In this document: one piece after another, positions 7,589 to 42,907 of the stretch
How positions within the stretch are numbered: position 1 is the first letter of the stretch
Layout: each line of letters opens with the position of its first letter
Source of the DNA: Lichenibacterium ramalinae
GTDB taxonomy: Bacteria > Pseudomonadota > Alphaproteobacteria > Rhizobiales > Beijerinckiaceae
Assembly: GCF_004137085.1 (NCBI RefSeq)
Contig: NZ_QYBC01000011.1
Coordinates: 1-64,000, forward strand
Reading direction: 5' to 3'
Length of the DNA: 64,000 nt
Translations under genes and position numbers: made by a program
The notes under the pieces: model-generated
The model's database searches: none
What the model saw: the letters and a program-made list of their open reading frames with translations, nothing else
Told to the model about the DNA's origin: nothing

Positions 7589-8653
7589 TCACGGGATGCG
7601 CAGCCCTTCGGCGTCGAAGAGGCGGAGGTCGCCGGGGTCGAAGGCGAGGGCGATGCGGTCCCCCGGCGCCGGGGTCGCACCCCGGCGGCGCTCGGCCACG
7701 ATCGGCTGACCGTCGGCGATCTCGCCGTGGACGTAGCTGGTGCCGCCGAGATATTCGGAAAACGCGACCGTCACGGCGAGGGCGGGTTCTCCGGCCCGCG
7801 CGTCGCGCAGGTGCTCGGGCCGCAGACCGACCTGGACGGGCCGGCCCGGGACGAGGCGTGCCGCGGGCGGCGGGCTGACGACGACGCCGCCCAGCGTGAC
7901 GCCGCCGCCGGGCGTGGTGCGGCCCTGGAAGAGGTTCATGCGCGGCGAGCCGATGAAGCCCGCCACGAAGGTGTTGACGGGATCGTCGTAGACCTCGGCC
8001 GGCGTTCCCGTCTGCTCGATGCGGCCCGCGCGCAGCACCACGATCCGGTCGGCGAGCGTCATGGCCTCGGTCTGGTCGTGGGTGACGTAGATCATCGTGT
8101 TGCCGAGTTCCCGGTGCAGGCGCGCGATCTCGATCCGCATCGAGACGCGCAACTCGGCGTCGAGGTTGGACAGGGGCTCGTCGAACAGGAACACTTTGGG
8201 GTCGCGCACGATGGCGCGCCCGATGGCGACGCGCTGGCGCTGCCCGCCCGACAGCTGGCTGGGTTTCCGGTCGAGCAGCGGTCCGAGCTTCAGGATGTCC
8301 GCCGCGGCCTCGACGCGCGACGCCACCGCCGCGGCAGGGCGCCTCATCATCTTCAGCCCGAAGCCCATGTTGTCGCGCACGCTCATGTGGGGGTAGAGCG
8401 CGTAGGATTGGAACACCATGGCGATGCCCCGCTCCGACGGGTCGGCATCCGTCACGTCCCGGCCCGCGATGGCGATGTCCCCGGCCGTGACCTCTTCGAG
8501 CCCCGCGATCATGCGCAGCAGCGTCGACTTCCCACAGCCCGAGGGCCCGACGAAGACGACGAAGTCGCCGTCGCCGATCGACAGGTCGACGCCGTGGATC
8601 ACGTCGACCAGGCCGTAGGACTTGGTGACGCCGCGCAGTTCGACGCCGCTCAC
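7589..8653 (-). CDS. sugar ABC transporter ATP-binding protein (UgpC/MsmK type)
   Basis: A 354-residue ATPase with Walker A (GPSGCGKST), Q-loop in VFQSYALYPH, signature LSGGQRQR, Walker B (VFLFDEPLSNLD) and an H-loop in YVTHDQTEA, then a C-terminal TOBE-type regulatory region. This is the ATPase for CUT1 sugar importers. The GTG start overlaps the GH127 stop (GTGA), so it is the last gene of an operon running right to left from lacI at 14819. Confidence 0.92.
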   Translation of the reverse strand: MSGVELRGVTKSYGLVDVIHGVDLSIGDGDFVVFVGPSGCGKSTLLRMIAGLEEVTAGDIAIAGRDVTDADPSERGIAMVFQSYALYPHMSVRDNMGFGLKMMRRPAAAVASRVEAAADILKLGPLLDRKPSQLSGGQRQRVAIGRAIVRDPKVFLFDEPLSNLDAELRVSMRIEIARLHRELGNTMIYVTHDQTEAMTLADRIVVLRAGRIEQTGTPAEVYDDPVNTFVAGFIGSPRMNLFQGRTTPGGGVTLGGVVVSPPPAARLVPGRPVQVGLRPEHLRDARAGEPALAVTVAFSEYLGGTSYVHGEIADGQPIVAERRRGATPAPGDRIALAFDPGDLRLFDAEGLRIP

Positions 8654-10605
8654 GCCTGTCCCTCCCCGTCCCGCGCCGAGGCCTCGACGCCGTCCGCCCG
8701 CAGCCAGACCAGCATCTCGCCGGGCGCGCGGTTGTCCCAGGCGTAGTAGGGCACGGCCCGGAGCGCGGCTGCGCGGCGCTGTGGCGGGACTTCGCGGTAG
8801 AGGTCCCCGCCCCAATCCGCCGCGTCCGTCCGCGCGGCGGCGCTCAGCGCCACGACGCCGCCCAGCAATTCCGGCTCGAACGCGTCCCGGATCTCGGCGG
8901 CTTCCGGCAGGGACAGGCCGTGGAGCCCCGGGCCGTTGTCGACGGCTTCGACGCAATAGACCAGGGGGCCGCGCTTCAGGGCGACGCGGCCCGCATCCTG
9001 TCGGACCTTGGGGTTGGCGTAGAGGCGCTTGGGCGTCATGCCGACGTCGAGTTCGACGACGTCGCCCGGCGACCAGCGTCGGGCCAGGCGCGCGTAGCCC
9101 TTGACGCGGACGGCCGCGACGTCGATGGCCTCGCCGCCCACCGACAGCGTCGGGTCCTGCGCCCAGGCCGGGATGCGCAGCGACAGGACGAAATCGGTCG
9201 GCGCCTCGAGCCCCACCGTCAGCCGCACGGCGCCGCTCCAGGGGTAATGGGTGTCCTGCAGCAGGCGAAGCCGGCGTCCGCCCCCGAGGTCGAGGTCGGC
9301 CTCGCCCGCGCAGTAGAGGTGAACGGCGGCCTCGCCCTCGGCCTCGCCATAGGCGTAGGAGCCGACCGAGGCCACGAGCCGGGCGATGTTGGGCGGGCAG
9401 CAGGGGCAGCGGTGCCAGGTCCAGCGGTTGTGGTCGCCGCGGCTCGCCAGCGGGTTCTCGTAGAAGAACTTCGTCCCGTCGAGCGACAGGCCGGACAGGG
9501 CGCCGTTGTAGAGCGCCTGTTCCATGATGTCGCCGAAGCGGCCATCGGGGCCGCGCCCGAGCATGCGGCTGGCCCAGAACACCAGCGCCACGGCGGCGCA
9601 GGTTTCCGCGTAGGCGCTCTCGTTCGGCAGGTCGTAGTCGAAGGTGAACCCCTCGTTGGCCTGCGACGGCCCGAGGCCGCCCGTGACGTAGAGGTTCTTC
9701 TCGGTGAGGTCGGCCCAGAGCCGCTCGAGGGGTGCCACGAGCGTCCCGTCGCCGGTCTCGGTCGCGACGTCGGCCATGCCGCTGTAGAGGTACATGGCGC
9801 GCACGGCGTGGCCCACCACCTTGTCCTGCTCGCGGACGGGCCGGTGCGACTGGCTGTATTCATGCGTGCCGAACCAGAAGTCCTCTCCCGACTCGCCGCG
9901 CGCCGCGGCTTCGCCGTCGAAGTAGTTGGGGCTCCGGCCGCGCTCGTCGACGAAATAGGTGGCGAGGTCGAGGTAGCGGCGCTCCCCCGTGGCGCGGGCG
10001 AGCCTGACCAGCGCCAGCTCGACTTCCGGGTGCCCGCAATAGCCGCGCTTTTGGCCGGGTTCGCGGCCCAGCGTCGCGATGACGTGGTCCATGCAGCGGC
10101 ACATCACGTCGAGGAGGCGGCGTTTGCCGGTGGCGTGGTGATAGGCCACCGCGCCCTCGATGAGGTGGCCCATGTTGTAGAGCTCGTGGCAGTCGCGCAG
10201 GTTGGTCCAGCGCTCGCCCGGGCGCATGCGCTGGAACCAGCTGTCGAGGTAGCCGTCCTCGGCCTGAAGCCGGGCATAGGCGTCGATGACCTCGTCGATG
10301 CGCCGCTCGAGCCCGGGGTCGCGCTTGCGGTCGATGGCGTAGGCGGCGGTCTCGATGATCTTGCCGAAGTCGGAGTCCCAGAACATCTGGGTCGTCACGC
10401 TGTTGCCGTGCTGGAACGGGATGCGCAGGTCCGGCACCGGCAGGGCCGGATCCACCTGGTCGAGGGTGCCGGCCGCGATGCAGCGGTCGAACAGGATGTT
10501 CACGGTCTTGTCGGCCACCACATCGATGCGGGGACCCCAGAAGCCCGCGATCTTCACCTTGGGGACGGCCGGCGGGCGGAAGCGGTTGGCGGGCGTGTCG
10601 GACAT
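8650..10605 (-). CDS. glycoside hydrolase family 127 protein (beta-L-arabinofuranosidase type)
   Basis: A 651-residue enzyme without a signal peptide, so it likely acts in the cytoplasm on imported oligosaccharides. GH127 enzymes use a zinc-bound cysteine nucleophile; the expected residues are visible as E334/C336 in YAETCA and C400, C402 and C403 in HRCPCCPPN. The family releases L-arabinofuranose from plant glycans or hydroxyproline-linked arabinans, and some relatives have other specificities. I chose ATG 10605; a GTG at 10635 would overlap the upstream permease stop and is also possible. The gene lies inside a CUT1 transporter operon, which fits uptake then hydrolysis. Confidence 0.88.
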   Translation of the reverse strand: MSDTPANRFRPPAVPKVKIAGFWGPRIDVVADKTVNILFDRCIAAGTLDQVDPALPVPDLRIPFQHGNSVTTQMFWDSDFGKIIETAAYAIDRKRDPGLERRIDEVIDAYARLQAEDGYLDSWFQRMRPGERWTNLRDCHELYNMGHLIEGAVAYHHATGKRRLLDVMCRCMDHVIATLGREPGQKRGYCGHPEVELALVRLARATGERRYLDLATYFVDERGRSPNYFDGEAAARGESGEDFWFGTHEYSQSHRPVREQDKVVGHAVRAMYLYSGMADVATETGDGTLVAPLERLWADLTEKNLYVTGGLGPSQANEGFTFDYDLPNESAYAETCAAVALVFWASRMLGRGPDGRFGDIMEQALYNGALSGLSLDGTKFFYENPLASRGDHNRWTWHRCPCCPPNIARLVASVGSYAYGEAEGEAAVHLYCAGEADLDLGGGRRLRLLQDTHYPWSGAVRLTVGLEAPTDFVLSLRIPAWAQDPTLSVGGEAIDVAAVRVKGYARLARRWSPGDVVELDVGMTPKRLYANPKVRQDAGRVALKRGPLVYCVEAVDNGPGLHGLSLPEAAEIRDAFEPELLGGVVALSAAARTDAADWGGDLYREVPPQRRAAALRAVPYYAWDNRAPGEMLVWLRADGVEASARDGEGQA

Positions 10606-10631
10606 GCGGAGAGGGCCTGTGCGAGAGGACG

Positions 10632-11489
10632 TCACTTCACCGCGCCGGCCGTGAGGCCGCGGATGTAGAAGCGTTGGAGGGCGAGGAAGACGACCAGGCA
10701 GGGGATCATCATGACGGTGACGCCGGCCTGCACGGCGCCCCAGTCGATCGAGCCGAAGCGGCCCGCCCGCACCGCCGTCATCAGCACCGGCAGCGTGAAT
10801 TTGTTCTCGTCACTGAGGAAGATCAGGGCGGCGAGGAACTCGTTCCAGCTGTTCAGGAAGGCGAAGATCGCCACCGTGGCGACGCCCGGCATGACGAGCG
10901 GCAGCAGCACCCGCACGAGCAGGCGCAGGTCGCGCACGCCGTCGATGCGGGCCGCTTCCTCGATCTCCTTCGGCACCGCGTCGAAGGCGTTGCGCATCAT
11001 GAAGATCGAGAAGGGGAGTTGCAGCGTCACGTAGACGAGGGTGAGCCCCGTCAGCGTGTTCTGCAGGTGCAGGTGCGTCAGCAGGATGAAGAGCGGCACC
11101 AGGATCGACTGGAACGGCACCATCATGGTGGTCATGACGAGGACGAAGCAGGTGTTGCGCAGCGGGAACCGGTAGCGCGAGAAGCCGTAGCCGGCGAAGA
11201 GGCTGACGACGACGCTGAGCACGACGGTCGCGCCGGCGACGAGGCCGCTGTTGGCGGCGTGCAGCCAGAGGCCGCCGCTCGCGCTGTCGAGCGTGCGGTA
11301 GGCATCGAGGCTGAAGCCCTGCGTCGGCCAGGGCGGCAGTGGTGGCTGCGCGGCCTCGGCGGCCGGGCGGAAGGAGGCCAGGACGGCCCAGGCCAGGGGG
11401 GCCAGGAAGGTCGCGGCGACGATGACGCCCACGAGGGTCGGGAGGGCGGCGACCATGCGGGAGCGGCCATGCCGGCGGCGCGGGCTCAT
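10632..11489 (-). CDS. CUT1 sugar ABC permease (MalG type)
   Basis: A 285-residue integral membrane protein with six predicted hydrophobic segments and the cytoplasmic EAA loop (EEAARIDGVRDLRLLVRVLLP), which contacts the ATPase. The N-terminus is basic (SPRRRHGRSR). The start overlaps the upstream permease stop as ATGA. It is the second of two permeases and is expected to form a heterodimer with the MalF-type partner encoded just upstream. Confidence 0.92.
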   Translation of the reverse strand: MSPRRRHGRSRMVAALPTLVGVIVAATFLAPLAWAVLASFRPAAEAAQPPLPPWPTQGFSLDAYRTLDSASGGLWLHAANSGLVAGATVVLSVVVSLFAGYGFSRYRFPLRNTCFVLVMTTMMVPFQSILVPLFILLTHLHLQNTLTGLTLVYVTLQLPFSIFMMRNAFDAVPKEIEEAARIDGVRDLRLLVRVLLPLVMPGVATVAIFAFLNSWNEFLAALIFLSDENKFTLPVLMTAVRAGRFGSIDWGAVQAGVTVMMIPCLVVFLALQRFYIRGLTAGAVK

Positions 11490-12418
11490 CGCGCGTCCTC
11501 CCGGTCGCGCAGGAGCCAGAGCTGGCCGAGGCTGAGAACGAGCAGGATGGCGAGCAGCACGATGGACAGGGCGGCGCCGTAGCCGAGGCGGAACGACACG
11601 AAGGATTGGTTGAAGATCCAGTAGACCGCCGTGAGGGTCTGGTTGCCGGGGCCGCCCGCCACCATGATGTAGAACTGGTCGAAGGCCAGCATCGAGCCGG
11701 TGATGCACAGGATGAGGGCGAGGCCCAGCGTCCGGCGCATCAGCGGCAGGGTGATGAAGCGGAAGCGCTGCAGCGGTCCGGCGTGGTCGATGCGGGCGGC
11801 CTCGACGATGTCGGCGGGGATGCCCTGGAGCCCGGTCATCAGCAGGATCATGGTGAAGCCCGCCACCTTCCACACCACCATGGCGACGATGGCGGCGAAG
11901 GCGGTGTCGAACGTCCCGAGGATGTTGATCCGCTGCGGCGTGATGCCGAGCGCCTGCAGCGCCGGGCTGAACAGGCCGCTGTCGGTGTTGAGCAGCCACA
12001 CCCAGAGCAGCGCCGCCGTGGCGAAGCCCACCACCACGGGCAGGAAGAAGGCAGTGCGCAACAGGCTGGCGAGGGGACGCGGCTTCTCGACGAGCAGCGC
12101 CAGGGGGAAGGCGACGGCGAAGATCGCGACCGTCGCCACCCCGGTGTAGACCAGCGTGAAGCGCAGCGACGCCCAGAAGCCCGCGTCGGACCATAGCCGC
12201 TCGTAGTTGCGCAGGCCGATGAAACGCGGCAGCCCGAGCAGCGGCCAGTTGTGCAGCGACATCCACGCCGTCATGCCGATCGGCACGATGAAGAAGACCA
12301 GCACCAGCGCCATGGCGGGCAGCACGTAGAGCAGCCCGACGAGGTCGCGCCGGCGGCGGCGGCGACCTTTGGGACGCGACGCCGCGACGGCGGCGGTGGG
12401 CAGGGAGGTGACGGACAT
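11486..12418 (-). CDS. CUT1 sugar ABC permease (MalF type)
   Basis: A 310-residue inner-membrane protein with a basic N-terminus (RPKGRRRRRRD) and six hydrophobic segments. The EAA loop reads VEAARIDHAGPLQRFRFITLP. It lies directly after the binding-protein gene (42 bp gap) and before the MalG-type permease, the standard CUT1 order. Substrate is inferred as an arabinose-containing oligosaccharide from the linked GH127 gene. Confidence 0.92.
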   Translation of the reverse strand: MSVTSLPTAAVAASRPKGRRRRRRDLVGLLYVLPAMALVLVFFIVPIGMTAWMSLHNWPLLGLPRFIGLRNYERLWSDAGFWASLRFTLVYTGVATVAIFAVAFPLALLVEKPRPLASLLRTAFFLPVVVGFATAALLWVWLLNTDSGLFSPALQALGITPQRINILGTFDTAFAAIVAMVVWKVAGFTMILLMTGLQGIPADIVEAARIDHAGPLQRFRFITLPLMRRTLGLALILCITGSMLAFDQFYIMVAGGPGNQTLTAVYWIFNQSFVSFRLGYGAALSIVLLAILLVLSLGQLWLLRDREDAR

Positions 12419-12460
12419 CGGGCTGCTCCCAGGGTCAAGTTCGAGGGATCGCGCGAGGGC

Positions 12461-13711
12461 TCACCGCGCGGCGTCGATGATGTCCTGCATGCGCGCCTGG
12501 CCGTCCTTGATGGCGGCGGCGGGGTCGCTCCCGAAGATCGCGGCGTTGACCATCTGCGCCCAGGGCCCGTTCGGGCTGTTGATGATGTCGTTGAAGACGG
12601 GCGAATAGGGCGTGCGCCCGACCTTGATGGCCGCCACGGCGACGTCGTAGCGCGGGTCCTGGCCCTTCATCGCCTCGGCGGCGATGTCGGAGCGGGCCGG
12701 CAGGCTGCCGTGCGACACCATCAGGCGCTGGCCTTCGAGCGAGTACACGTAGGCCATGAAGGCCTCGACCGCCTTGACGGACTTGGCCCCCTTCGTGACC
12801 ACGATGTTGTTGCCGCCCACGAAGGAGGAGGTGCCGCCGTCCGGGCCCGGGATGAGCGTCACGCCGAAGTGGACGTTCGGGTACTTGTTGATGAGCACGC
12901 CGATCTGGCTGGCTCCGATCGACTGCAGGCCGATGCGGCCGCCGACGATCGACAGGAAATCCGGGCCCGTGTCGGTGCGGGCGCTGGCCGGCACCATGCC
13001 GCCGGCGACGAGCGATCGGTAGAAGTCGACGGCCCCCCTGAGCTGGGGCGTGTCGAGCGTCGCCTTGGCGCCCTCATCGGCCAGGATGTCGCCCCCCGAA
13101 GCCCAGATCAGCGGCGTGAAGGTGAAGATGAAGCAACCCCCGCAGGCCCCGGAGAAGTAGAAGCCGCGGCTGTCGCCCCCGAGCGCCGTCACCTTGGCGG
13201 CATCCGCCTTCCACTCCGCCCAGGTCTTCGGGCCCTTCTCGGGGTCGAGCCCGGCCCGCGCGAACAGGTCCTTGTTCCAGGCGAGAACCGACGTTTCCGT
13301 GGTCAGCGGCAGGCCGTAGATCCTGCCGTGGTAGGTGCCGACAGACAGGTGGGCGGGGGACAGCGCCTCGAAGTACGGCAGGCTCTTCGCCCAGTCCGTC
13401 AGGTCCTCCAGCTGCCCCGCCTGGGCGAAGGCGGGGGTGTGGATGAGGTCGAGCGAGACGGCGTCCGGCGCGGTGCCGGCCGCGATGGCGGTGGCGTATT
13501 TCTGCACGAATTCGTCGACCGGCAGGGTGACGATCGACACCTTGTCGGCGTGGGTGTCGTCGTAGGCCTTAGCGACGGCTTCCAGCGTGTCGCCCTGACC
13601 GCTGCGGCTCCAGATGGTCAGGGTCTCGGCCGAGGCCGGCAGGGCCAAGGTCGGCAGGACCAAGCCCGCCAGGGCGGTGGCGGCGACCAGCAGGCTCTTG
13701 AGGCTATGCAT
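12461..13711 (-). CDS. CUT1 sugar ABC transporter substrate-binding protein
   Basis: A 416-residue periplasmic protein with a clear Sec signal peptide (hydrophobic core followed by LPASAE, cut after ASA) and a MalE/UgpB-like fold (start TLTIWSRSGQGD; later GACGGCFIF and the EGQRLMVSHGSLPAR region). The start ATG has GGAGG a few bases upstream. It follows lacI by 61 bp and leads the transporter genes. Ligand probably an oligo-arabinofuranoside, by context. Confidence 0.9.
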   Translation of the reverse strand: MHSLKSLLVAATALAGLVLPTLALPASAETLTIWSRSGQGDTLEAVAKAYDDTHADKVSIVTLPVDEFVQKYATAIAAGTAPDAVSLDLIHTPAFAQAGQLEDLTDWAKSLPYFEALSPAHLSVGTYHGRIYGLPLTTETSVLAWNKDLFARAGLDPEKGPKTWAEWKADAAKVTALGGDSRGFYFSGACGGCFIFTFTPLIWASGGDILADEGAKATLDTPQLRGAVDFYRSLVAGGMVPASARTDTGPDFLSIVGGRIGLQSIGASQIGVLINKYPNVHFGVTLIPGPDGGTSSFVGGNNIVVTKGAKSVKAVEAFMAYVYSLEGQRLMVSHGSLPARSDIAAEAMKGQDPRYDVAVAAIKVGRTPYSPVFNDIINSPNGPWAQMVNAAIFGSDPAAAIKDGQARMQDIIDAAR

Positions 13712-13772: not shown

Positions 13773-14819
13773 TCAGCCGCTGGACGCGCGGACGACGAGC
13801 CTGCAGGGCAGCTTGCGGATCCCGGGCGAGACGGGTCGACCCTCGACGAGGTCGAGCAACGTCAGTCCCGCGTGGCGCCCGAGGTCCTTGAGGTTCATGT
13901 CGACCGTGGTGAGCGGCGGTCGGGTCGCGGCGGCGAAGATCTCCCAATTGTCGAAGCCGATCACCGCCACGTCCTGCGGCACGCGCAGCCCGCGCAGCGT
14001 CAGGGCATCGATCAGCCCGCGCGCGATCTGGTCGTTGCCGCAGAACACGGCGTCGGGGGGCGCCGCCGGGCCCTCCAGCAGGGCTCCCGCCGCGGCGAAC
14101 CCCCAGGCTTCGGACCAGTCGCCGATCAGCGGCTCGGCGCGGACGGGAGCGAGGCCCGCCGCGGCGAGCGCCGCGGCGAAGCCCTCGGCCCGCCGGTGCA
14201 CCACCGCGAAATCCTCCGGGCCGGTGACGTGGGCGATGCGACGGCAGCCGCGGTCGACGAGGTGGGCGACGGCGAGCCGGGCGCCTTGGCCGTCGTCCGA
14301 CACGAAACCGACGGAGCCCTCAGGGCCCTCGCAATAGGCATAGACGACCGGCACGTCGACGCCGGACAGGTCGACCGGCAGGCGACTGTCGAGGCGCTTA
14401 CCGGATGCGATGATGCCGTCGACCTGCTTCTCCAGCATGGCGTCGACGTGGCTCTGGCCGATGACGGGATCGCGCTCGACCGAGCACAGGAACACCGAAA
14501 CACCGCGGTCGACGAGCGCTTCCGATATGCCGGCCATCACCGGCAGGGTGAAACGCCCGTAGGTGTCGTTGGTCAGCAGCCCGATGGTGAAGCTGCGCTG
14601 CTTCAGCAGCGCCCGCGCGATGGCGTTGGGCCGGAAGCTCAAGGCCTTCGCGGCGGCCTTGACCCGTTCCCGCGTCGCCAAGGCCATGCGGCCCTGGCCG
14701 CTCAGCGCCTGCGACGCGGTCGTGACACTCACGGATGACGCCTTGGCGACATCGTGGATGGTCACGCGAGCCCCGCGCTTGGCTCTGCCCGTGGCGGCTC
14801 GGGGCGCACGGTCGTCCAT
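13773..14819 (-). CDS. LacI family transcriptional regulator
   Basis: A 348-residue repressor. The N-terminal HTH reads VTIHDVAKASSVSVTTASQA (about residues 19-38), followed by the hinge helix region and a periplasmic-binding-protein-like effector domain ending in LPCRLVVRASSG. It is the first gene of the arabinofuranoside operon and sits directly downstream of a LacI-type operator, so it probably represses itself and the operon until sugar binds. Its first 40 or so codons and its promoter have a diverged second copy at 41180-41382, fused to an AraC-type gene. Confidence 0.93.
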   Translation of the reverse strand: MDDRAPRAATGRAKRGARVTIHDVAKASSVSVTTASQALSGQGRMALATRERVKAAAKALSFRPNAIARALLKQRSFTIGLLTNDTYGRFTLPVMAGISEALVDRGVSVFLCSVERDPVIGQSHVDAMLEKQVDGIIASGKRLDSRLPVDLSGVDVPVVYAYCEGPEGSVGFVSDDGQGARLAVAHLVDRGCRRIAHVTGPEDFAVVHRRAEGFAAALAAAGLAPVRAEPLIGDWSEAWGFAAAGALLEGPAAPPDAVFCGNDQIARGLIDALTLRGLRVPQDVAVIGFDNWEIFAAATRPPLTTVDMNLKDLGRHAGLTLLDLVEGRPVSPGIRKLPCRLVVRASSG

Positions 14820-14857
14820 GTCTGCCTCCCCTGTCGACCCCGCCCAGCCTTCGGCTG

Positions 14858-14901
14858 CGAAAACGTTTCACCAAACTGCTGCAGATCGTGTTTTGCGTCA
14901 A
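14858..14901 (-). promoter_or_regulatory. lacI operon promoter and LacI-type operator
   Basis: On the minus strand a TTGACG -35-like hexamer (14896-14901) is followed about 27 bases later by TGAAACGTTTTCG (14858-14870), whose core AAACGTTT is a perfect palindrome typical of LacI-family operators. It lies about 40 bases before the lacI start codon. The -10 is not obvious. The same hexamer and operator occur in the same arrangement at 41181-41224, upstream of the chimeric regulator. Confidence 0.65.
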
Positions 14902-16365: not shown

Positions 16366-17409
16366 ATGGCGCCTGACCGTTTCGCCCGCCGCCTCGCGTC
16401 GGTCGCGCTGGCGCTCGCCGGGAGCTTCGCGCTCCTCGGCCCCACGGCCGGCCACGCCGCCGAGCCGACCCGCTACCCGCTGACGATCCAGAACTGCGGC
16501 CTCGCCGTCACGGTCGACCACGCGCCGAAGCGCGTCGTCTCCATCGGCCAGGCCACCACGGAGATCCTGCTCTCGCTCGGCCTCGCCGACCGGATCGTCG
16601 GGACGGCCGTCTGGTTCGGACCGGTGCTGCCGGCCTTTGCGGCCGAGAACGCCACGATCAAGCGGCTCGCCGACAACGACCCGAGCTTCGAATCGGTCGT
16701 GGGCCAGAACCCCGACCTCGTCGCCGCGCAATACGAGTGGCATGTCGGCCCGCACGGCAGCGTCGGCACGCGCCAACAGTTCTCCGATCTCGCGATCCCG
16801 ACCTACGTGTCGCCCTCGGACTGCGTCGCGAAGGACAATGCGGGCGGCGGCGACGGCGTGCGCCGGCAGATGTTCAGCATGGACCTCGTCTACGGCGAGA
16901 TCCACGACCTCGCCCGCATCTTCGACGTCGACGCCCGCGGGGACAGGCTCATCGCCGACCTCAGGGCGCGCGAGGCCGCCGCCAAGGCCGCCGTCGCCGG
17001 CAAGGCTTCGGGCGTGCCGGTGGTGTTCTGGTTCTCCAGCAAGGACGAGAAGGGCGACGCCTTCGTGGCCGGCAAGAACGGCGCCCCGGCCTTCATGATG
17101 CAGGCGCTCGGCGCCCGCAACGTCGTCACCACCGAGGACGAGTGGCCGCTGGCGAGCTGGGAAAGCATCGCGGCCGCCGATCCCGCCGTGATCGTCGTGG
17201 GCCAGATGGACAGGCGCCGCTTCCCGGCCGACGATCTCGCCGTGAAGCGCCGGTTCCTCGCCACCGACCCGGTCGTCAGCCAGCTCCGTGCCGTGAAGGA
17301 GGGCCATGTGGTGGTGATGGACGCCCAGGACATGAACCCGTCGATCCGCACCATCGACGGCCTGGAGGCGCTGGCGAAGGGCATGGCGGCCGCCGGGCCG
17401 ATGCGATGA
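16366..17409 (+). CDS. corrinoid ABC transporter substrate-binding protein (BtuF/FecB type)
   Basis: A 347-residue periplasmic protein with a signal peptide (hydrophobic core then GHAAEP) and the helical-backbone fold of class III binding proteins: KRVVSIGQATTEILLSLGLADRIVG near residues 47-71 and NPDLVAAQYE near 120. Under a cobalamin riboswitch and followed by FecCD-type permease and ATPase genes, it probably binds cobalamin or cobinamide. Other chelated metals cannot be excluded, since the family also takes siderophores and zur is adjacent. Stop overlaps the permease start (ATGA). Confidence 0.85.
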   Translation: MAPDRFARRLASVALALAGSFALLGPTAGHAAEPTRYPLTIQNCGLAVTVDHAPKRVVSIGQATTEILLSLGLADRIVGTAVWFGPVLPAFAAENATIKRLADNDPSFESVVGQNPDLVAAQYEWHVGPHGSVGTRQQFSDLAIPTYVSPSDCVAKDNAGGGDGVRRQMFSMDLVYGEIHDLARIFDVDARGDRLIADLRAREAAAKAAVAGKASGVPVVFWFSSKDEKGDAFVAGKNGAPAFMMQALGARNVVTTEDEWPLASWESIAAADPAVIVVGQMDRRRFPADDLAVKRRFLATDPVVSQLRAVKEGHVVVMDAQDMNPSIRTIDGLEALAKGMAAAGPMR

Positions 17410-31377: not shown

Positions 31378-32633
31378 TGCCGGCGCCGGGTCTGTTCCCC
31401 TATCGCTACCGGGCCTACCGGGGCGACGGCAGCGTCGTGGTCGCCACCATCGACGCCGCGAGCCCCGAGGCCGCCGTCGCCGCCGTCTACGATGCCGGGC
31501 TGACGCCGTTCGAGACCGTTCGGGTCGCCGCCCGCGGGGATCGGGTCGCCGCCCGCCGGGCCCGGAGCGTCGCCGGCCCGGCGGGACCGTCCGACCGGCT
31601 TTCGCTAAAGGAGCTGCGGGCCTTCACCGTCGAGCTCGCCACCCTCACCCTGGCGGAGCTGCCGCTCGACGAGGCCATGCGCAGCGTCGCCGGCCCCGGG
31701 GCCAAGCCCAAGGCCGGGCGCCTGGCCCGCAGCCTTCTGGCCGACCTGCTCGGGGGCGCGCAGCTGTCGGAGGCCATGGCCCGGCACCCCCGGAGCTTCC
31801 CGCCGGACTACCGCGCCATCGTCGGGGCGGGCGAAGCCGGCGCCGCCCTGCCGCGGGTTCTCGGCGAGCTGGCCGAAGCCCTGGCCCGCAGGGTCGAGGT
31901 GCGCGGCAAGCTGCTGGCCGCCATGGTCTATCCCGCCATCCTGCTCGCCATGTCGCTGGCATCCGTCGGCGTCATCGTCGCCGTGCTGGTGCCGAACCTC
32001 ACGCCCATCTTCACCGACGCCGGCCTGCCGCTGCCCGGCATCCTCGGCACGCTCGTGGCGGCGCGCGACGCGTCCGGCGCGGCGGCGGCCGTGGCGCTGG
32101 CCGTCGGGCTTGCGCTCGCCGGCCTCGCCAGGGCCGGCACGCGCGACCCGATGGTCCGCCTCGCCGCCGACCGGCTGCTGGTCCGGCTGCCGGTCCTCGG
32201 CGCTTTCCTCACCGCGGGTGAGGCGGCCCGCTTCCTGCGCGGGCTCGGCACGCTGATCGGGGCCGGCGTGCCCATGATGGGGGCGCTGCGCATCGCGCTC
32301 GACCTCGTCGCCAACCGGGACCTCGCGCGGCGCTACGCGGCGTCTCTGGAGCGCGTGCCGAACGGCGAGTCGCTCACGGCCTCGCTCGGCGACGCCGCCC
32401 TCGTGCCGGCTTCCGCCCTGCGCTTCGTCGCGCTGGGCGAGGAGACCGGCCGGCTCGGCCCGATGCTGTCGAAGGCGGCGGGCCTGCTGGAAGGCGACCA
32501 GCAGCGGGCGATCGACCGGCTCCTGTCGCTGCTGACGCCCGTGATGACGCTGGCCGTGGGCGGGGCCGTCGGGGCACTCATCATGTCGGTGATGGGCGCC
32601 GTCCTGTCCATCAACGACCTGGCGTTCAAGTGA
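31377..32633 (+). CDS. gspF: type II secretion inner-membrane protein GspF
   Basis: A 418-residue polytopic protein with two T2SSF domains (about 75-195 and 275-400), each followed by hydrophobic segments. Motifs include ELATLTLAELPLDEAM, VRGKLLAAMVYPAILL and, near the end, EGDQQRAIDRLLSLLTPVM. GspF is the membrane platform protein that contacts GspE. The start codon overlaps the gspE stop (TGATG). Confidence 0.93.
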   Translation: MPAPGLFPYRYRAYRGDGSVVVATIDAASPEAAVAAVYDAGLTPFETVRVAARGDRVAARRARSVAGPAGPSDRLSLKELRAFTVELATLTLAELPLDEAMRSVAGPGAKPKAGRLARSLLADLLGGAQLSEAMARHPRSFPPDYRAIVGAGEAGAALPRVLGELAEALARRVEVRGKLLAAMVYPAILLAMSLASVGVIVAVLVPNLTPIFTDAGLPLPGILGTLVAARDASGAAAAVALAVGLALAGLARAGTRDPMVRLAADRLLVRLPVLGAFLTAGEAARFLRGLGTLIGAGVPMMGALRIALDLVANRDLARRYAASLERVPNGESLTASLGDAALVPASALRFVALGEETGRLGPMLSKAAGLLEGDQQRAIDRLLSLLTPVMTLAVGGAVGALIMSVMGAVLSINDLAFK

Positions 32634-33070
32634 AGCTGAGGCGACGCGGCGGGGCCGCGGGCTTCACGCTGGTCGAGCTTCTCGTCACGATGGCGATCCT
32701 CGGCGGCGTGATGGCGCTCGTCGTGGCGGCCAGGCCGCGCGCGGCGACGCTGCGGCTCGACGCCACCGCCCGGGCGATCGCGTCCGGCCTGCGGGCCGCC
32801 CGTGCGCGCGCCATGCTGAGCGGCACCGAAGCCACCTTCGTGCTCGACGGCGCTGCCCGGACCTACGGCCCGCCGCGCGACCCGCGGCCGCTGCCGGCCG
32901 ACATGGCCGTGGCGGTCGCGGTGGCGTCGAGCGAGCGGGACCACGACGCGGGCGCCTTCCGCTTCTACCCGGACGGACGCTGCACCGGAGGCTCGCTGAC
33001 CATCAGCCTCGGGGACCGCGCCGTCCTCGTCACGGTCGACTGGCTGACGGGCGAGCCATGGATCCGCTGA
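32630..33070 (+). CDS. gspH: type II secretion minor pseudopilin GspH
   Basis: A 146-residue pseudopilin with a short basic leader and cleavage site AAG|FTLVELL (Glu+5), a hydrophobic helix, then a GspH-type globular domain ending in LVTVDWLTGEPWIR. Start GTG 32630 overlaps the gspF stop. It overlaps gspI by 13 bases. Confidence 0.88.
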   Translation: MKLRRRGGAAGFTLVELLVTMAILGGVMALVVAARPRAATLRLDATARAIASGLRAARARAMLSGTEATFVLDGAARTYGPPRDPRPLPADMAVAVAVASSERDHDAGAFRFYPDGRCTGGSLTISLGDRAVLVTVDWLTGEPWIR

Positions 33071-33510
33071 CGAGGGGTCCGGCGCCGCGACGCCGATGCC
33101 CGGGCGGGCGCAACCGGCCGGCCGGCGGGCGGGCCGGCTTCGTGCTGGCCGAAACGCTCGTCGCCTTCGCGGTGCTGGCGGTCGGCCTCGGCCTCATCTT
33201 CACCGGCATCGCGGTGGCGCTCCGCTCCGATGGGCGGGCCGCCGCGAACCGGGCGGCGCTGCGCGAAGCCCAGGGGCTGCTCGCCCGGGCCGGTCTCGTC
33301 GAACCGCTGGCGACCTCTGACCGGCATGGCGGCGAGCCCGGGAGCGCCCGCTGGCGCATGACCATCGTCCGCGTCGTTCCGGCTGCGGCCGAAACGGCGA
33401 CCGCTGGGGCACCGCCGCCGCTCGCGGCCTTCTGGGTCGACGTGACGGTGTCGATGCCGGACGGGTCCGGCGCCGCGCTGGCCGGGCTGAAACTGGCCCA
33501 GCGACGATGA
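33058..33510 (+). CDS. gspI: type II secretion minor pseudopilin GspI
   Basis: A 150-residue pseudopilin with a Pro/Arg/Gly-rich leader and cleavage site RAG|FVLAETL (Glu+5), a hydrophobic helix and a short globular domain (RWRMTIVRVVP, AFWVDVTVSMPDGSG). It forms the pseudopilus tip with GspH, J and K. It overlaps gspH by 13 bases and gspJ by 4. Confidence 0.87.
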   Translation: MDPLTRGPAPRRRCPGGRNRPAGGRAGFVLAETLVAFAVLAVGLGLIFTGIAVALRSDGRAAANRAALREAQGLLARAGLVEPLATSDRHGGEPGSARWRMTIVRVVPAAAETATAGAPPPLAAFWVDVTVSMPDGSGAALAGLKLAQRR

Positions 33511-34169
33511 GGCGGGGCGGCCGCGACACCCGTGCCCGGCTCCGCCGCGGGCGGGCGGGCCGGCGCCATGCGGGCCAGCGCGGCCTCACGCTGGTCGAGC
33601 TCCTCATGGGCCTCGCCCTCCTGGTGCTGGTGACGGGCTTCCTGGCCGCTGGCCTGTCGACGGCCCGGCGCGCCGCCGAGGCGGATGCGGTCGCGGAAAC
33701 CGCGACGCGGACCGATGCCGCGCTCGCGGCCGCCGTCGATCTCGTCGAAGCGTCGCTGCCCATCGAGACGATCGTGGTCGGGACCCAGCGTGCCACCCTG
33801 GCCTTCGACGGCCGGCACGGCAGCCTCGCCGCGATCCTGCTCGGCGACGGGCGGACCCTGCGCGGCGGCCTCGTCTCCCTGACGCTGCGCCGCGAGGGCG
33901 ATGCCGTCCTGGTCGACGTCGCCCCTGTGCGCGAAGGCGTGGCCCTGGCGGCGGTGGATCCCGACAGGGTCCGGCACGTCACGCTGCTGACCGGCGTGCG
34001 GGACCTGCGGATCGGCTACCTCGGCGACGCCGGCCGGGACGGTCGGGCCGCCTGGCGCGACAGCTGGGAGGCGAGCGGGCGGCTGCCGGCCCTGGTGGCG
34101 GTGGAGGTCGACTTCCTCGACCCGCGCCGACGCCCGGCCGCCGCGACGGCGGTCCTGCGCCAGCGATGA
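33507..34169 (+). CDS. gspJ: type II secretion minor pseudopilin GspJ
   Basis: A 220-residue pseudopilin with a basic leader (GRDTRARLRRGRAGRR) and cleavage site QRG|LTLVELL (Glu+5), a hydrophobic helix, then a larger globular domain with VRDLRIGYLGDAGRDG and ALVAVEVDFLDP, as in GspJ. ATGA overlap with gspI. A gap of 79 bases with a local AT-rich TTTAAATT stretch separates it from gspL. Confidence 0.87.
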   Translation: MRRGGRDTRARLRRGRAGRRHAGQRGLTLVELLMGLALLVLVTGFLAAGLSTARRAAEADAVAETATRTDAALAAAVDLVEASLPIETIVVGTQRATLAFDGRHGSLAAILLGDGRTLRGGLVSLTLRREGDAVLVDVAPVREGVALAAVDPDRVRHVTLLTGVRDLRIGYLGDAGRDGRAAWRDSWEASGRLPALVAVEVDFLDPRRRPAAATAVLRQR

Positions 34170-38218: not shown

Positions 38219-38594
38219 TCGCCGCGGCGCGTCCCGATGCTGAGAAGACGGGGGGCCGCGACGTACAGGACGGCGTTGACCGCGCGATGCTTATCACAAT
38301 CACGCAGAATACGATCACTGTTCGCAATTTTGATAGAACAGCCTACACTGCTGAACCCTCGTGTTGACCTAGTGTCGTAACGGTGCAATCCTGTTGCTTA
38401 CAACCTGACGAAATGCCGGAGGTCGACGGCACCTTAAGGTTGCAGCGGCAGTATAGATCGTCGTGAAGTTGCATTCCGGAACGTCAACGAGCCCACGGCC
38501 TCCCCGGTCTTCTGGCAACATGACACCGGAGTCCAAACCGACATTGACAGTGCCGCGATCACGGGCGCGTGGGGCGCCACGACGGACAGCTGCA
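38219..38594 (+). other. long intergenic region, locally AT-rich
   Basis: 376 bases before the chosen start of the PAS regulator. The stretch 38285-38480 is clearly lower in GC than its surroundings (CAATTTTGATAGAACAG, TTGACCTAGTGTCG). I see no gene in it; it probably holds promoters. GTG 38463 and ATG 38520 are alternative in-frame starts for the next gene, so part of this could be coding. Confidence 0.45.
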
Positions 38595-39749
38595 ATGACC
38601 TTCATGGATTGGGAAGAGGCTTGGAGAAAGTCGCGGCGGGTTCTGCCTGAGGACGCGCCGGAGCGGGGCGTCGAACCGTTCATTGTCCGTCCGGGGCCGA
38701 CGACCTGCGGGCCGGGTCAACTCTCCGACCCGGCGCCGCAGGATCACCTGCGCCGTTCGGACGAACTCCTGAACCTCGTCGAGAGCCATGGGCTGACAGG
38801 GGCCTGGGCCTGGATCTTCGACACCGACGAGCACGTGTGGTCGCCAGGATGCTTCAACCTCCTCGGCATCGACCCGCGGGGGACCCGCCCGAGCTACGCC
38901 CTCCTGCTCGACCGCGTCCATCCCGACGACCGCGCCGGGCTGGCCCGGCCCACGGACCTCGTGCGCGGCGACGCGCCGGCGACGCAGACGTTCCGCATCA
39001 TCCGGCCGGACGGCACGCTGCGGATCCTGTGCGGCCGCAACGACATCAAGTTGGGACCCGACGGCGCCCCGCGATCGGCCCTCGGCACCCTTCTCGACGT
39101 GACCGAGCGGGAACGCGACATCAAGGCCCATGTGTCGCTCCGCCGACAAACGCGCGACCTGAGCCGCAAGGCGCGCCTCCTGTGGTTCGCCATGCGCCAC
39201 GACCGGACCTTCGACTTCGAGGCCGATGCGGCCGACGTGCTCGGCTGTCCCCCGGCGAGCCTCGGCAGCGACCCCTTCGCCTGCGCGGGACGGGAAGCGC
39301 GTGAGGGGCTCTACCGGTCCATCGCCGATCACCAGGCATCGGGGACCGAGATGCAGCGCGACATCGTGCTCCACCCCCTCGGCGGAGCGCCCCGACCGTG
39401 CCGGATCGTCATGATCCCGAACCGCGACCCGGGCGCGGTGGCGACCTGGACGGGCCTCCTGCAGGTGATGGACGGGGTGGAACCGGCCTGTCCCGAAAGC
39501 GAGGGCGAAGGCCACCCCGCCGCCATGCGCGGCTTCCACCTCCGGGCGGGGCGCGCGCTGCTCGACTGGTCGATGCACGACCTCGCCGCTGCCAGCGGCC
39601 TGTCCCTGTCGACCGTCCGGCGGATCGAGGTCGACGACGACGCGCAGCCGGCCCGCTCCCGCCCCCGGGCCCTGTCGGCCCTGCGGCGGGCCGGCATCCG
39701 CTTCATGCCCCTGCGCGACGGCACGGTCGCGGTGTCGCGCAGCGGCTGA
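38595..39749 (+). CDS. PAS domain protein with C-terminal XRE-like HTH
   Basis: A 384-residue protein from ATG 38595 (428 if GTG 38463 is used). A PAS fold of the PAS_3 type spans about residues 50-170 (WAWIFDTDEHVWSPGCFNLLG, then FRIIRPDGTLRILCGRND and TLLDVTERERD), a second weaker PAS-like stretch follows, and the C-terminus has an XRE-type helix-turn-helix (HDLAAASGLSLSTVRRIE). No kinase or GGDEF domain is present, so it looks like a one-component sensor-regulator. Ligand unknown. Confidence 0.7.
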   Translation: MTFMDWEEAWRKSRRVLPEDAPERGVEPFIVRPGPTTCGPGQLSDPAPQDHLRRSDELLNLVESHGLTGAWAWIFDTDEHVWSPGCFNLLGIDPRGTRPSYALLLDRVHPDDRAGLARPTDLVRGDAPATQTFRIIRPDGTLRILCGRNDIKLGPDGAPRSALGTLLDVTERERDIKAHVSLRRQTRDLSRKARLLWFAMRHDRTFDFEADAADVLGCPPASLGSDPFACAGREAREGLYRSIADHQASGTEMQRDIVLHPLGGAPRPCRIVMIPNRDPGAVATWTGLLQVMDGVEPACPESEGEGHPAAMRGFHLRAGRALLDWSMHDLAAASGLSLSTVRRIEVDDDAQPARSRPRALSALRRAGIRFMPLRDGTVAVSRSG

Positions 39750-39932
39750 CCCGTCGCGCCGGCCCGGCGGGCCGGCATCGAAGCCCAATCGGCCGTCTCC
39801 GACACGCATTCGGCGACCCCGGCGCCCGTCGGGCCGATGTCGGAGCGGAGCCGCGACGCGCACCTGAACACAGGCGCGCGTCGCGAGGTCGGCGCGTGTC
39901 GGCAGCGGCGTGATGCAGGCCGAGCCGATAAG

Positions 39933-39985
39933 ACTGCTCTCGACCCGGATCCGCAGCGTCTTCGCCGAAGGCGAAAGCGCTCCAG
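39933..39985 (+). repeat. dispersed intergenic repeat, copy 2
   Basis: Runs ACTGCTCTCGACCCGGAT, then CTTCGCCGAAGGCGAA, ending GCGCTCCAGA. It matches the minus strand of 15058-15111 with several substitutions and small indels, and sits in the 285-bp gap before the AraC-type gene, where no other gene is seen. The self-complementary TTCGCCGAAGGCGAA core folds into a small hairpin. Confidence 0.55.
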
Positions 39986-40034
39986 ACCAGTCCCGGCACA
40001 TCGACGCGGGCCATGATTCTGTTATCGTGGCTCC

Positions 40035-41042
40035 ATGCCGAACCAGACGACAGCAACGGTCGCGTCGTGGCGTCCCCAGACCTTCTTCTCCCACCGGATC
40101 GAGACCGCGGGGCAGATCGAACGACTGAACGCGGAGGGCGGCATCGCGGTGCGCTTCAGGCCGCTCGGGCGCGCGGGGGCCGCCTTCACCTTCGTCGGCG
40201 GGCAAAGTGCAGCACTCAGCCTGTGGCGGACGGCGTCGCGCAGCGGCTTCGTGACGATCCCGCAGATCGATGTCGACGTCGTCACGATCCGCTTCGTCAC
40301 GCGCGGCGTCATGCTGCGGCACGACCACCGCCGCGAGCATGTCGGGCGTCCGGGCTGGGCCATGATGGTGATGTTCGACGCGATGCGCGACGAAGAAGCC
40401 TCGGGAGGCTTCGAAGCCCTGAGCGGCACCATTACCCGTCAGGCGCTCGTGGCGGGCCACATGGCGTTCGAGGGCGAGGCCGCTTCCGCGGCGCTGCCGG
40501 ACTTCGAACCCATCGTGGAGATGAAGGGCCTGCCGCTGCAGGCCCTGATGCTGACCATGGACCGGGTGCACGGGCAGTTGCGGGCCGGCGTCTCCGACTC
40601 CGACCTGCTGTTCCCGCTGCTCGAAGAGATCATGGTCTACCAGTTGCTCTCGGCCTGGCCGCGCCGGTCGCCCGCCGCCCTGCGCCGCCGGTCCGCGTCG
40701 GACGCGGCCCCCCTGCGGCGCGCCCAGGACTATATCGACGGCCACATCGCCCAGAAGCTGCTGCTGTCCGACGTCGCGGGCGCCGCCGGGGTCGGGGTGC
40801 GCCGCCTGCAGCTGATCTTTCGCGGCGAGACCGGCAAGACCCCGCTCCAGTTCATCCTGGAGCGGCGGCTCGACCGCGTCCACGCGGACCTGCGCACGTC
40901 CAGCGGCGGCGGCGCCTCCGTCGGCACGGTGGCGGCACGCTGGGGTTTCACCCACATGGGCGACTTCGGCCGGCGCTACCGCGCGCGCTTCGGCGAAGCG
41001 CCCAGCCTGACGCGGCGAAGCCCCCCCTCCGCTCGCGGCTGA
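40035..41042 (+). CDS. AraC family transcriptional regulator
   Basis: A 335-residue regulator. The N-terminal ligand-type domain (about 15-190) includes FRPLGRAGAAFTFVGG, and the C-terminal AraC/XylS double HTH (about 232-330) includes GVGVRRLQLIFRGETGKTPLQF split around residue 265 and VAARWGFTHMGDFGRRYRARFG near the end. From residue 130 on it is nearly duplicated in the chimeric gene at 41260-41997, and the homology continues 41 bases past its stop. Effector unknown. Confidence 0.88.
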   Translation: MPNQTTATVASWRPQTFFSHRIETAGQIERLNAEGGIAVRFRPLGRAGAAFTFVGGQSAALSLWRTASRSGFVTIPQIDVDVVTIRFVTRGVMLRHDHRREHVGRPGWAMMVMFDAMRDEEASGGFEALSGTITRQALVAGHMAFEGEAASAALPDFEPIVEMKGLPLQALMLTMDRVHGQLRAGVSDSDLLFPLLEEIMVYQLLSAWPRRSPAALRRRSASDAAPLRRAQDYIDGHIAQKLLLSDVAGAAGVGVRRLQLIFRGETGKTPLQFILERRLDRVHADLRTSSGGGASVGTVAARWGFTHMGDFGRRYRARFGEAPSLTRRSPPSARG

Positions 41043-41083
41043 CGGGGCCGCCCGGCCTTCACGGCCGGCGACTGCGGGCGGCC
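41043..41083. other. duplicated 3' fragment of the epimerase-like gene
   Basis: These 41 bases after the AraC stop repeat, with few changes, 41998-42038 after the chimera stop. In the second place they encode, on the minus strand, the last 7 codons of the epimerase-like gene (stop at 42014). The copy here is therefore a fossil tail (AARSRRP stop, against AARSRLP stop) with no gene attached. It marks the right boundary of the duplicated unit. Confidence 0.75.
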
Positions 41084-41180
41084 GCATCGGCGACGCGCCG
41101 CAGCGCCGCCGTCAGCACCCCGGCGGTCGACACGGCAGGGGACCTACCCCTCGGATGCAACCTCACCGAGAACGTATGAG

Positions 41181-41224
41181 TTGACGCCGGATTGGATCTG
41201 CAGCAGTTTGATGAAACGTTTTCG
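41181..41224 (+). promoter_or_regulatory. copied LacI-type promoter and operator upstream of the chimera
   Basis: TTGACG at 41181-41186 and TGAAACGTTTTCG at 41212-41224 (palindromic core AAACGTTT) reproduce the lacI promoter/operator at 14858-14901, with the same intervening GATCTGCAGCAGTTTG block. The similarity continues through a GGGGGGAG ribosome site into the coding sequence, so the regulatory DNA was copied with the gene start. Confidence 0.7.
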
Positions 41225-41259
41225 CAGTCCGAAGCCCGGCGACATCCAAGGGGGGAGAC

Positions 41260-41997
41260 ATGGACGATCGCGCGCCCCAGGCCGCCGCGGGTGGGGCCAA
41301 GCTCGCCGCTCGCGTCACAATCCAGGATGTCGCGAGAGCGGCATCGGTGAGCGTCGCGACCGCATCGCAGGCCCTGGGCGGCACCGTCACCCGTCAGGCG
41401 CTCGTGGCGGGCCACGTGGCGCTCGAAGGGGAGGCGCCTTCCGCGGCGCTGCCGGACTTCGACCCCGTCCTGGCGACGAAGAGCCTGCCGCTGCGGGCCC
41501 TGATGTCGACCATGGAGCGGGTCCACGGGCAGTTGCGGGCCGGCGCTTCCGACTCCGACCTGCTGGTCTCGCTGCTCGAAGACGTCATGGTCGACCAGTC
41601 GCTCCCGGCCTGGCCGCGCCGGTCGCCCGCCGCCCTGCGGCCCCGGCCCGCGTCGGGCGTGGACGCGCTGCGGCGCGCCCAGGACTATATCGACGGCCAC
41701 ATCGCCCAGAAGCTGCTGCTGTCGGACATCGCGAGCGCCGCCGGGGTCGGGGTGCGCCGCCTGCAGCTGATCTTTCGCGGCGAGACCGGCAAGACCCCGC
41801 TCCAGTTCATCCTGGAGCGGCGGCTCGACCGCGTCCACGCGGACCTGCGCACGTCCAGCGGCGGCGGCGGCTCCGTCGGCACGGTCGCGGCACGCTGGGG
41901 TTTCAACCACATGGGCGACTTCGGCCGGCGCTACCGCGCGCGCTTCGGCGAGGCGCCCAGCCTGACGCGGCGAAGCCTCCCCTCCGCTCGGCGCTGA
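41260..41997 (+). CDS. chimeric regulator: LacI HTH fused to AraC C-terminal half
   Basis: A 245-residue protein. Residues 1-39 match the lacI product at 14819 (MDDRAP at the start, then VTIQDVARAASVSVATASQA); from about residue 40 (LGGTVTRQALVAGH) it matches the AraC-type protein at 40035-41042 from residue 130, at roughly 85% by eye. It keeps the LacI HTH but loses the LacI hinge and effector domain and the AraC ligand domain, and keeps the AraC double HTH. The join falls in the shared GC[CG]CTGAGCGGC tract. Frame, start and ribosome site are intact, so it is probably expressed. Confidence 0.85.
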   Translation: MDDRAPQAAAGGAKLAARVTIQDVARAASVSVATASQALGGTVTRQALVAGHVALEGEAPSAALPDFDPVLATKSLPLRALMSTMERVHGQLRAGASDSDLLVSLLEDVMVDQSLPAWPRRSPAALRPRPASGVDALRRAQDYIDGHIAQKLLLSDIASAAGVGVRRLQLIFRGETGKTPLQFILERRLDRVHADLRTSSGGGGSVGTVAARWGFNHMGDFGRRYRARFGEAPSLTRRSLPSARR

Positions 41998-42013
41998 CGG
42001 GGCCGCCCGGCCT

Positions 42014-42907
42014 TCACGGCAGGCGGCTGCGGGCGGCCTGTTTCTGCGCCTCCTTGGCGGCTTTGAGCTGCGCCCGCGTGTACATGAGGGCGTGGCTGGC
42101 GAGGTCCTGGCCGTCCTCCCACAGGTTGCGCCAGATGCCGAGGATGCCTTCGAGCGGCTGGCCGACGACGCGCGACGAGAAGGACTCGAAGGTGATCGGC
42201 CCGGCATAGCCCGACTTGACCAGCGCCCGGAAGACGCCGGCGAGGTCGATCGAGCCCGAGCCCATGTAGCCGCGGTGCGAGTCGCCGGTGTGGAAGTAGC
42301 CGAGGTGAGGGCCGGTCTCGAGGATCGCCTGCTGGATGTCGGATTCCTCGATGTTCATGTGGTAGACGTCGAGGTGGACCTTGACGTTCGGCGCCCCGAT
42401 GCGCCTGCACATCTCGACGCCCTGGCTCGCCGTGTTGAGCACGTTGGTCTCGTAGCGGTTCACCACTTCGAGCCCCAGCGTGATGCCGCTCCTGGCCGCC
42501 GTCTCGGCGACGCGCTGCAGCACCCCGACGGCGTTCTTCACCCCGTCGGACGTGGTCGGCACGGCGTATTTCTGGAAGGCCGAGAACAGGATCCCGGCCA
42601 CATGCGTGGCGCCGATGTCGCGCGCCATGGCGACGGCCCGGCCGAGCGTCGCCTCGCCGGCCCGGATCTTGTCGGGGTCGGTGCTGGAGATGTCGGCGGC
42701 CGCATCGAGGCCGAACGAGAAGGTGGCGCCGATGCCGGCCTTGTCGAGTTCCGCGCGGGTGTGGGCCGTGTCGACCGCCGCCGGGTCCATGATCGAGATC
42801 TCGATCAGGTCGAACCCGAGTTCCGCCGTCTTGCCGATGGCCCGCGCGGCTTCCTCGCGGCTCCAGCCCTTCTCCCAGACGAAAGCGTGTACGCCGAGCT
42901 TGTTCAT
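42014..42907 (-). CDS. sugar epimerase/isomerase-like TIM barrel protein (D-tagatose 3-epimerase type)
   Basis: A 297-residue TIM-barrel protein with no signal peptide. Metal-binding residues of ketose 3-epimerases are visible: Glu in LGLEVVNRYE, Asp/His in HLDVYHMNIEE, His in YFHTGDSHRGYMG and Glu in ITFESFSS. Such enzymes interconvert ketoses at C3, but relatives act on other sugars, so substrate is open. It converges with the chimeric regulator (16 bp), and its last codons are duplicated at 41059-41083. Confidence 0.82.
   Translation of the reverse strand: MNKLGVHAFVWEKGWSREEAARAIGKTAELGFDLIEISIMDPAAVDTAHTRAELDKAGIGATFSFGLDAAADISSTDPDKIRAGEATLGRAVAMARDIGATHVAGILFSAFQKYAVPTTSDGVKNAVGVLQRVAETAARSGITLGLEVVNRYETNVLNTASQGVEMCRRIGAPNVKVHLDVYHMNIEESDIQQAILETGPHLGYFHTGDSHRGYMGSGSIDLAGVFRALVKSGYAGPITFESFSSRVVGQPLEGILGIWRNLWEDGQDLASHALMYTRAQLKAAKEAQKQAARSRLP

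Follow-up and report, generated by a model that had tools for sequence, protein, structure and literature searches.

A chimeric LacI-AraC regulator gene at the joint of a tandem duplication in Lichenibacterium ramalinae

A fused gene and its two parents

The window analysed here comprises bases 1-64000 of the 213,560-base contig NZ_QYBC01000011.1 of Lichenibacterium ramalinae. It contains a full-length gene for an AraC-type regulator, a second open reading frame behind it in which the 3' part of an AraC-type gene is preceded by the 5' end of a lacI-type gene, and, on the opposite strand, a complete lacI-type gene (Table 1). Elsewhere in the window, a cobalamin riboswitch (Rfam RF00174, 102.7 bits) lies at 15876-16078 (+) inside the 5' part of an open frame (15757-17409) whose later part, as we take it, resembles a metal/cobalamin ABC substrate-binding protein, and three consecutive ORFs at 32630-34169 (+) have prepilin-like N-termini (GFTLVE, GFVLAE and GLTLVE) and presumably encode minor pseudopilins of a secretion system. 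An 842-aa open frame at 38559-41087 (-), antisense to a PAS-domain gene and to the AraC-type gene, is probably a by-product of high G+C.

Table 1 Features of the chimeric gene, its parents and their surroundings (positions in the window)
Feature	Position	Strand	Remarks
Genes downstream of lacI	8650..13711	-	Solute-binding protein, permease, GH127 beta-L-arabinofuranosidase (Pfam); second permease by eye
Parent-type lacI gene, first gene of apparent arabinofuranoside operon	13773..14819	-	
lacI upstream block with candidate operator 14859-14870	14855..14887	-	
Full-length AraC-type regulator, upstream tandem copy	40035..41042	+	
Duplicated 25-base 3' end of epimerase-like gene, behind upstream AraC copy	41059..41083	-	Offset 955 to 42014-42038
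Spacer at novel joint, ~110 bases, followed by lacI-derived piece	41084..41194	.	Last bases share GTTGACGC with lacI upstream region
Upstream block common to lacI-type gene	41195..41227	+	32/33 bases identical to window lacI upstream region
Candidate LacI-family operator TGAAACGTTTTC, palindrome-like	41212..41223	+	
Chimeric regulator ORF, 245 aa	41260..41997	+	Intact ATG-to-stop; HTH_18 68.2 bits, LacI 26.8 bits
lacI-derived codons 1-37, first part of headpiece only	41260..41370	+	
AraC-derived remnant of sensor/dimer region (helices), fast changing	41371..41676	+	
Complete AraC-type DNA-binding domain, residues 140-239	41677..41976	+	
Convergent epimerase-like gene	42014..42907	-	Best NCBIfam match D-psicose 3-epimerase, 177 bits, cut-off 300

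Local alignment assigned the two parts of the chimeric gene to separate parents. Bases 41195-41382 align to the lacI locus at 14697-14887 (minus strand) with 156 of 187 aligned bases identical and 5 gap bases, and bases 41350-42038 align to the AraC-type gene and its 3' flank at 40397-41083 with 633 of 687 identical and 2 gap bases. In a DNA search of the organism's own genome the lacI piece found the lacI locus at an E value of 2.8e-41 and the AraC piece found the AraC-type gene at 6.9e-275, far above chance, which rules out a chance match. An initial annotation of this DNA had described a fusion of these two parents, with a ribosome site and upstream region derived from lacI, and the alignments uphold that description; the coordinates it gave for the matching lacI stretch are replaced by those above. 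Beyond these, the search gave one weaker match, to an AraC paralogue on contig C69 (E 6.1e-57), and two short ones. An AraC-type paralogue on that contig (L058), 63% identical to the full copy, served as an outgroup in the comparisons below.

The AraC portion of the chimera corresponds to the full copy's C-terminal 208 residues (128-335). Since codon 37 reads CAG, the lacI form, and codon 38 reads GCC, the AraC form, the join lies most likely at about 41370/41371, a position that depends on a single base. The join thus falls inside a tract common to both parents, as initially proposed, and 37 codons rather than 39 derive from lacI. The two halves differ from their parents by 17% (lacI) and 8% (AraC), with no closer copy in the genome; on these grounds misassembly, which the initial annotation had named as a refutation, is rejected, and the LacI-AraC fusion is evidently natural and genuine.

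The two AraC copies are direct repeats at an offset of 955 bases, and their homology extends 41 bases past the chimera stop into the 3' end of the convergent epimerase-like gene. The epimerase-gene ends of three relatives align to the duplicated tail, which is therefore the epimerase gene's own 3' end, and this 25-base scrap reads as a direct mark of tandem duplication. No AraC-type match was found beside the epimerase at nine other epimerase loci, each with about 1500 bases of flank, one of them partly unreadable. It is thus the upstream full-length gene that bears the scrap, whereas the chimera has the original 3' surroundings, and the novel joint is 41084-41370. For the spacer within this joint, no convincing donor emerged from six genus genomes or four window regions: among many short matches, the best were a 31-base stretch in the relative G002 (94%, E 2.4e-6) and, in another part of the window genome, one of 42 bases (83%, E 1.5e-5), and scores against the four window regions were within the range of shuffles.

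Overall, the direct repeat, the novel joint and the 5' region of a foreign gene standing there make up the layout of a tandem duplication that took in the 5' end of another gene at its joint. Coding regions fused to new promoters at tandem-duplication joints are known from the his genes of Salmonella (Anderson and Roth 1978, as cited in PMC11111574). In both cases a coding region is joined to a foreign promoter at such a joint, whereas here the joint additionally brings in 37 codons and a candidate repressor operator, the gene so joined is a regulator in its own right, and it stands in a natural genome rather than in a selected mutant.

The search for the same fusion in related genomes, suggested by the initial annotation, yielded no second example in the genomes searched. 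When 149 genomes (its own and five other genus members included) were searched with the protein, 42 matched at E 1e-10 and, among the best 18 or fewer candidates per genome, no match outside the window genome started before residue 18. In an order sample of 397 genomes, 27 matched at E 1e-18, own included, and the lowest match start outside the window genome was residue 17 among the best six or fewer candidates per genome; one early-starting match (L059) is an ordinary full AraC-type ORF. Pattern scans returned 146 contig stretches and 17 viral stretches, none a relative, from collections in which records of the window's or very near genomes were possibly excluded. The 5' DNA matched in 31 of 397 family genomes at E 0.001, own included, and among the matches listed beyond the window genome and the lacI gene of G002 at most 54 of its 216 bases were covered; four plasmid records covered 4-15% of the query. 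No report of a fusion of this type was recognised in searches of open-licence papers. The combination in the chimera was met nowhere else among the genomes searched, while LacI-AraC hybrids are known in another arrangement.

Domains kept and lost

The AraC-type DNA-binding domain of the chimera is complete: the Pfam HTH_18 profile is matched over positions 1-79 of 80 with 68.2 bits against a cut-off of 33.6, and both helix-turn-helix motifs of an AraC/XylS C-terminal domain are present. The N-terminal sensor/dimerisation domain, common but not universal in that family, is absent. In the full copy as modelled (mean pLDDT 75.8), a beta-barrel at about residues 18-134 is followed by helices at 135-146, 166-183 and 188-206 and then by the DNA-binding domain at 226-328. 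Missing from the chimera are full-copy residues 1-127, that is, most of the predicted barrel; with the full-copy model as a guide, it retains the end of the last barrel strand, the helices and the DNA-binding domain. The earlier statement that no ligand domain remains was thus nearly right, as the predicted barrel is gone but the helices behind it are still there. The model of the chimera itself has residues 133-238 as an AraC-type domain (ten-residue pLDDT means of 81-98), helices at 76-93 and 98-117 at pLDDT 68-86, and residues 1-80 at 44-58. Its best structure matches are AraC-type DNA-binding domains, and 4 of 100 residues in this domain differ between chimera and full copy.

The LacI part is much less complete. 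A complete LacI/GalR headpiece consists of three helices plus a hinge. In the chimera the LacI Pfam profile is matched over positions 1-21 of 46 with 26.8 bits (cut-off 27), and over positions 1-18 when codons 1-37 are taken alone, while the window lacI gene matches positions 1-46 and includes a Peripla_BP ligand domain. Profile positions 22-46 are absent, which rules out the complete headpiece expected of a LacI/GalR member, and no Peripla_BP match to the periplasmic-binding-like ligand domain of that family was found in the chimera. We take its LacI residues to cover helix 1 and the recognition helix but neither the third helix nor the hinge helix; the LacI piece is an incomplete DNA-binding module. 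In the chimera model this part shows a single helix of low confidence without any helix-turn-helix, but the alignment contained no LacI rows, which makes the test a weak one. The initial annotation had proposed two unrelated DNA-binding modules, a claim that these comparisons do not support. That the gene encodes a functional regulator with two working modules, binding LacI and AraC sites at once, draws on the start of the LacI helix-turn-helix that is kept with family-like residues; with more than half of the headpiece profile lacking and the model as described, we consider it highly improbable.

Proteins that combine the two families, or that lack a sensor, offer two comparisons. In E. coli XylR, a LacI-type sugar-binding domain is fused with an AraC DNA-binding domain. 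The chimera resembles it in uniting LacI/GalR-family and AraC-family parts in one protein, but it has only a partial headpiece and no LacI ligand domain and so does not show the XylR-type arrangement; the E. coli XylR structure 4fe4 was a weak match (E 0.28). MarA and SoxS are stand-alone AraC DNA-binding proteins, which illustrates that a sensor-less protein can work. With the MarA/SoxS/RamA type the chimera shares an AraC-type DNA-binding domain without a sensor, which would be controlled by the amount made, as we understand that mode; it differs in about 100 residues of ancestral helical region and in its LacI leader, and its NCBIfam matches to those families are partial and far below their cut-offs. 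The best NCBIfam match of both copies was to AndR-like AraC/XylS regulators (NF041686), at 91.8 and 90.6 bits and far under the 350-bit cut-off.

Divergence of the two halves

Nonsynonymous and synonymous divergence (dN and dS) was counted by the method of Nei and Gojobori. Codons 1-37 compared with the window lacI gave a dS of 0.64 (13 of 30.2 sites) and a dN of 0.12 (ratio 0.19), whereas the AraC part (codons 42-245) compared with the full copy gave a dS of 0.077 (12.5 of 171.3) and a dN of 0.080 (ratio 1.04). Synonymous divergence is thus about eight times higher in the lacI part (p 6e-6 by Fisher's test, counts rounded); at fourfold sites, differences number 7 of 20 there against 7 of 122 in the AraC part (p 7e-4). 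For scale, the whole window lacI and its G002 orthologue have a dS of 0.52. The two halves of the chimera evidently differ in age, and the earlier derivation from two genes of the same window holds as homology but leaves this excess in the lacI part unaccounted for.

Three histories fit these values: an old fusion with later gene conversion, a recent one whose lacI donor had already diverged, and a recent one after which the window lacI was replaced. According to the first, the fusion would be old and selected; gene conversion from the copy next to it would have renewed its AraC part repeatedly, and only the lacI part would reveal its actual age, close to that of the separation from G002. Beyond the difference in dS, the low lacI-part ratio argues for it, as do the N-terminus MDDRAP and the upstream block, common to the chimera and the window lacI and absent from the G002 orthologue. 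However, the lacI part may have come under purifying selection before the fusion, the argument rests on 37 codons, and there is no direct conversion trace, with fourfold differences at 4 of 56 sites in the linker and 3 of 66 in the domain. We regard this history as unlikely. The same age difference would arise if the fusion were recent and its lacI piece came from a second, diverged homologue (a lost paralogue or a sister-species copy), or if the window lacI was later replaced by a diverged allele. R26 and A33 of the chimera match G002 LacI and not window LacI, but at other sites (e.g., H22 and S28) window LacI equals G002 and the chimera differs; moreover, the lacI piece has no second DNA match in its own genome, and in the 397 sampled family genomes the only long match besides the own one is G002 lacI. 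A recent fusion of either kind is a realistic prospect, if a little short of an even chance, and neither of these two readings of age excludes the other explanations.

The check for purifying selection gave a different answer for each half. The lacI part looks constrained, though the constraint may be older than the fusion. On the chimera branch, codons 17-37 carry 2 nonsynonymous and 4 synonymous changes (p 0.05, on small counts). The chimera branch of the AraC part is compatible with neutrality, and the pairwise dN/dS of about 1 gives no detectable purifying selection on that part since the copies split, which makes a decaying duplicate a serious rival reading. When changes were polarised with outgroups, the linker had nonsynonymous to synonymous counts of 15 to 4 for the chimera and 11 to 3 for the full copy, with 4 changes assigned to neither; in the binding domain the counts were 2 to 2 and 2 to 1, respectively. 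Outgroup states past chimera residue ~239 are unreliable because the row from contig C69 extends beyond its own stop. Several residues altered in the chimera are identical in all three outgroup sequences (e.g., Y112D, L114S, F103V and P104S). Total base change was 37 of 306 in the linker against 10 of 318 in the binding domain (p 3e-5), a contrast that selection on the domain and gene conversion would both produce. The linker of the full copy (40416-40721) has likewise been rich in amino-acid changes since the duplication, and its 11:3 ratio suggests that both AraC copies may be under relaxed or shifted constraint.

Under the rival reading, a chance fusion in a tandem duplication would be drifting towards a pseudogene, its frame open just because the duplication is young. 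The frame at 41260-41997 is free of stops and frameshifts, as initially reported, but this is weak evidence of function because just 1.9% of single changes would create a stop. The AraC-part ratio of about 1, the 15:4 linker changes on the chimera branch and the absence of the fusion from every other genome searched are all as a dead end would leave them. Decay would be harder to reconcile with the upstream block, almost unchanged beside diverged synonymous sites, with LacI residues that have not decayed by profile score (23.5 bits for the 37 residues, against 19.0 for the same residues of the parent), or with a DNA-binding domain changed less than the linker, though gene conversion could cause the last. 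We hold a dead-end duplicate to be possible but, on balance, doubtful.

A candidate operator, its probable capture and the possible consequences

The 33-base block upstream of the chimera has 1 mismatch to the lacI upstream region, compared with differences at 7 of 20 fourfold sites in the adjoining lacI codons (Fisher p 0.003, which is optimistic because the block was chosen from the alignment), and the 5' leader adjoining the block has several mismatches and gaps relative to lacI. Of all that the chimera inherited, this regulatory DNA is the best preserved. Within the block, TGAAACGTTTTC has two exact matches in the 5.8-Mb genome, one before the chimera (41212-41223) and one before lacI (14859-14870); three more places match with one mismatch. 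Each of the 80 lacI homologues retained (the best of 413 relatives found) has a similar palindrome within the 220 bases ahead of its match, with 12 of 12 bases in 6, 11 in 67 and 10 in 7, whereas in-gene control stretches of the same loci reached at most 9 of 12. Its central two bases vary, and AAACGTTT occurs in just 8 of the 80. The occurrence before all homologues, together with the lower control scores, supports the lacI-type upstream palindrome as a candidate autoregulatory operator. A first operator pattern, GAAANCGTTTTC, gave no match with one mismatch allowed, and a sigma-70 consensus scan gave no passing site before the chimera or lacI. The order of lacI, solute-binding protein, permease and GH127 is conserved in two genus relatives.

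Taken together, the anatomy of the gene and the second copy of the operator, which are observed directly, suggest promoter capture. A partial tandem duplication copied the 3' two thirds of the AraC-type gene together with 25 bases of the epimerase-like gene, and in the second copy the lacI-type operator block, ribosome site and 37 codons stand where the gene's own promoter and sensor domain would be; both points can be read from the sequence. We infer the remainder, namely LacI repression, expression and binding of the chimera. The LacI-family repressor of the arabinofuranoside operon, acting on its own operon, would also repress the chimera, and in the presence of a sugar inducer a sensor-less AraC-type DNA-binding protein would be made, which could act on, or compete at, the sites of its full-length counterpart. 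The 37 LacI residues would then serve mainly as a translated leader. That a sensor-less AraC-type regulator came to answer to this repressor by promoter capture seems to us about as probable as its opposite. Two regulons could plausibly be linked by means of the captured operator, and not by a LacI DNA-binding module. A stronger version would have the gene as an old, selected bridge between regulons, in which repressor promoter, operator and leader were grafted onto a sensor-less AraC domain that conversion keeps matched to the parent's sites; this we consider quite unlikely, but if it were true, the sugar to which a LacI-family repressor responds would directly govern an AraC regulon.

Altered binding sites are the usual evidence for the rewiring of regulatory networks. 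Here, one rearrangement seems to have stripped a regulator of its sensor and supplied it with the control site of another regulator, and since both parent kinds are present in the same genome, the promoter-capture model is testable. A working gene would illustrate, compactly and in nature, how promoter capture can link regulons; a gene that does not work would show how such fusions arise and decay.
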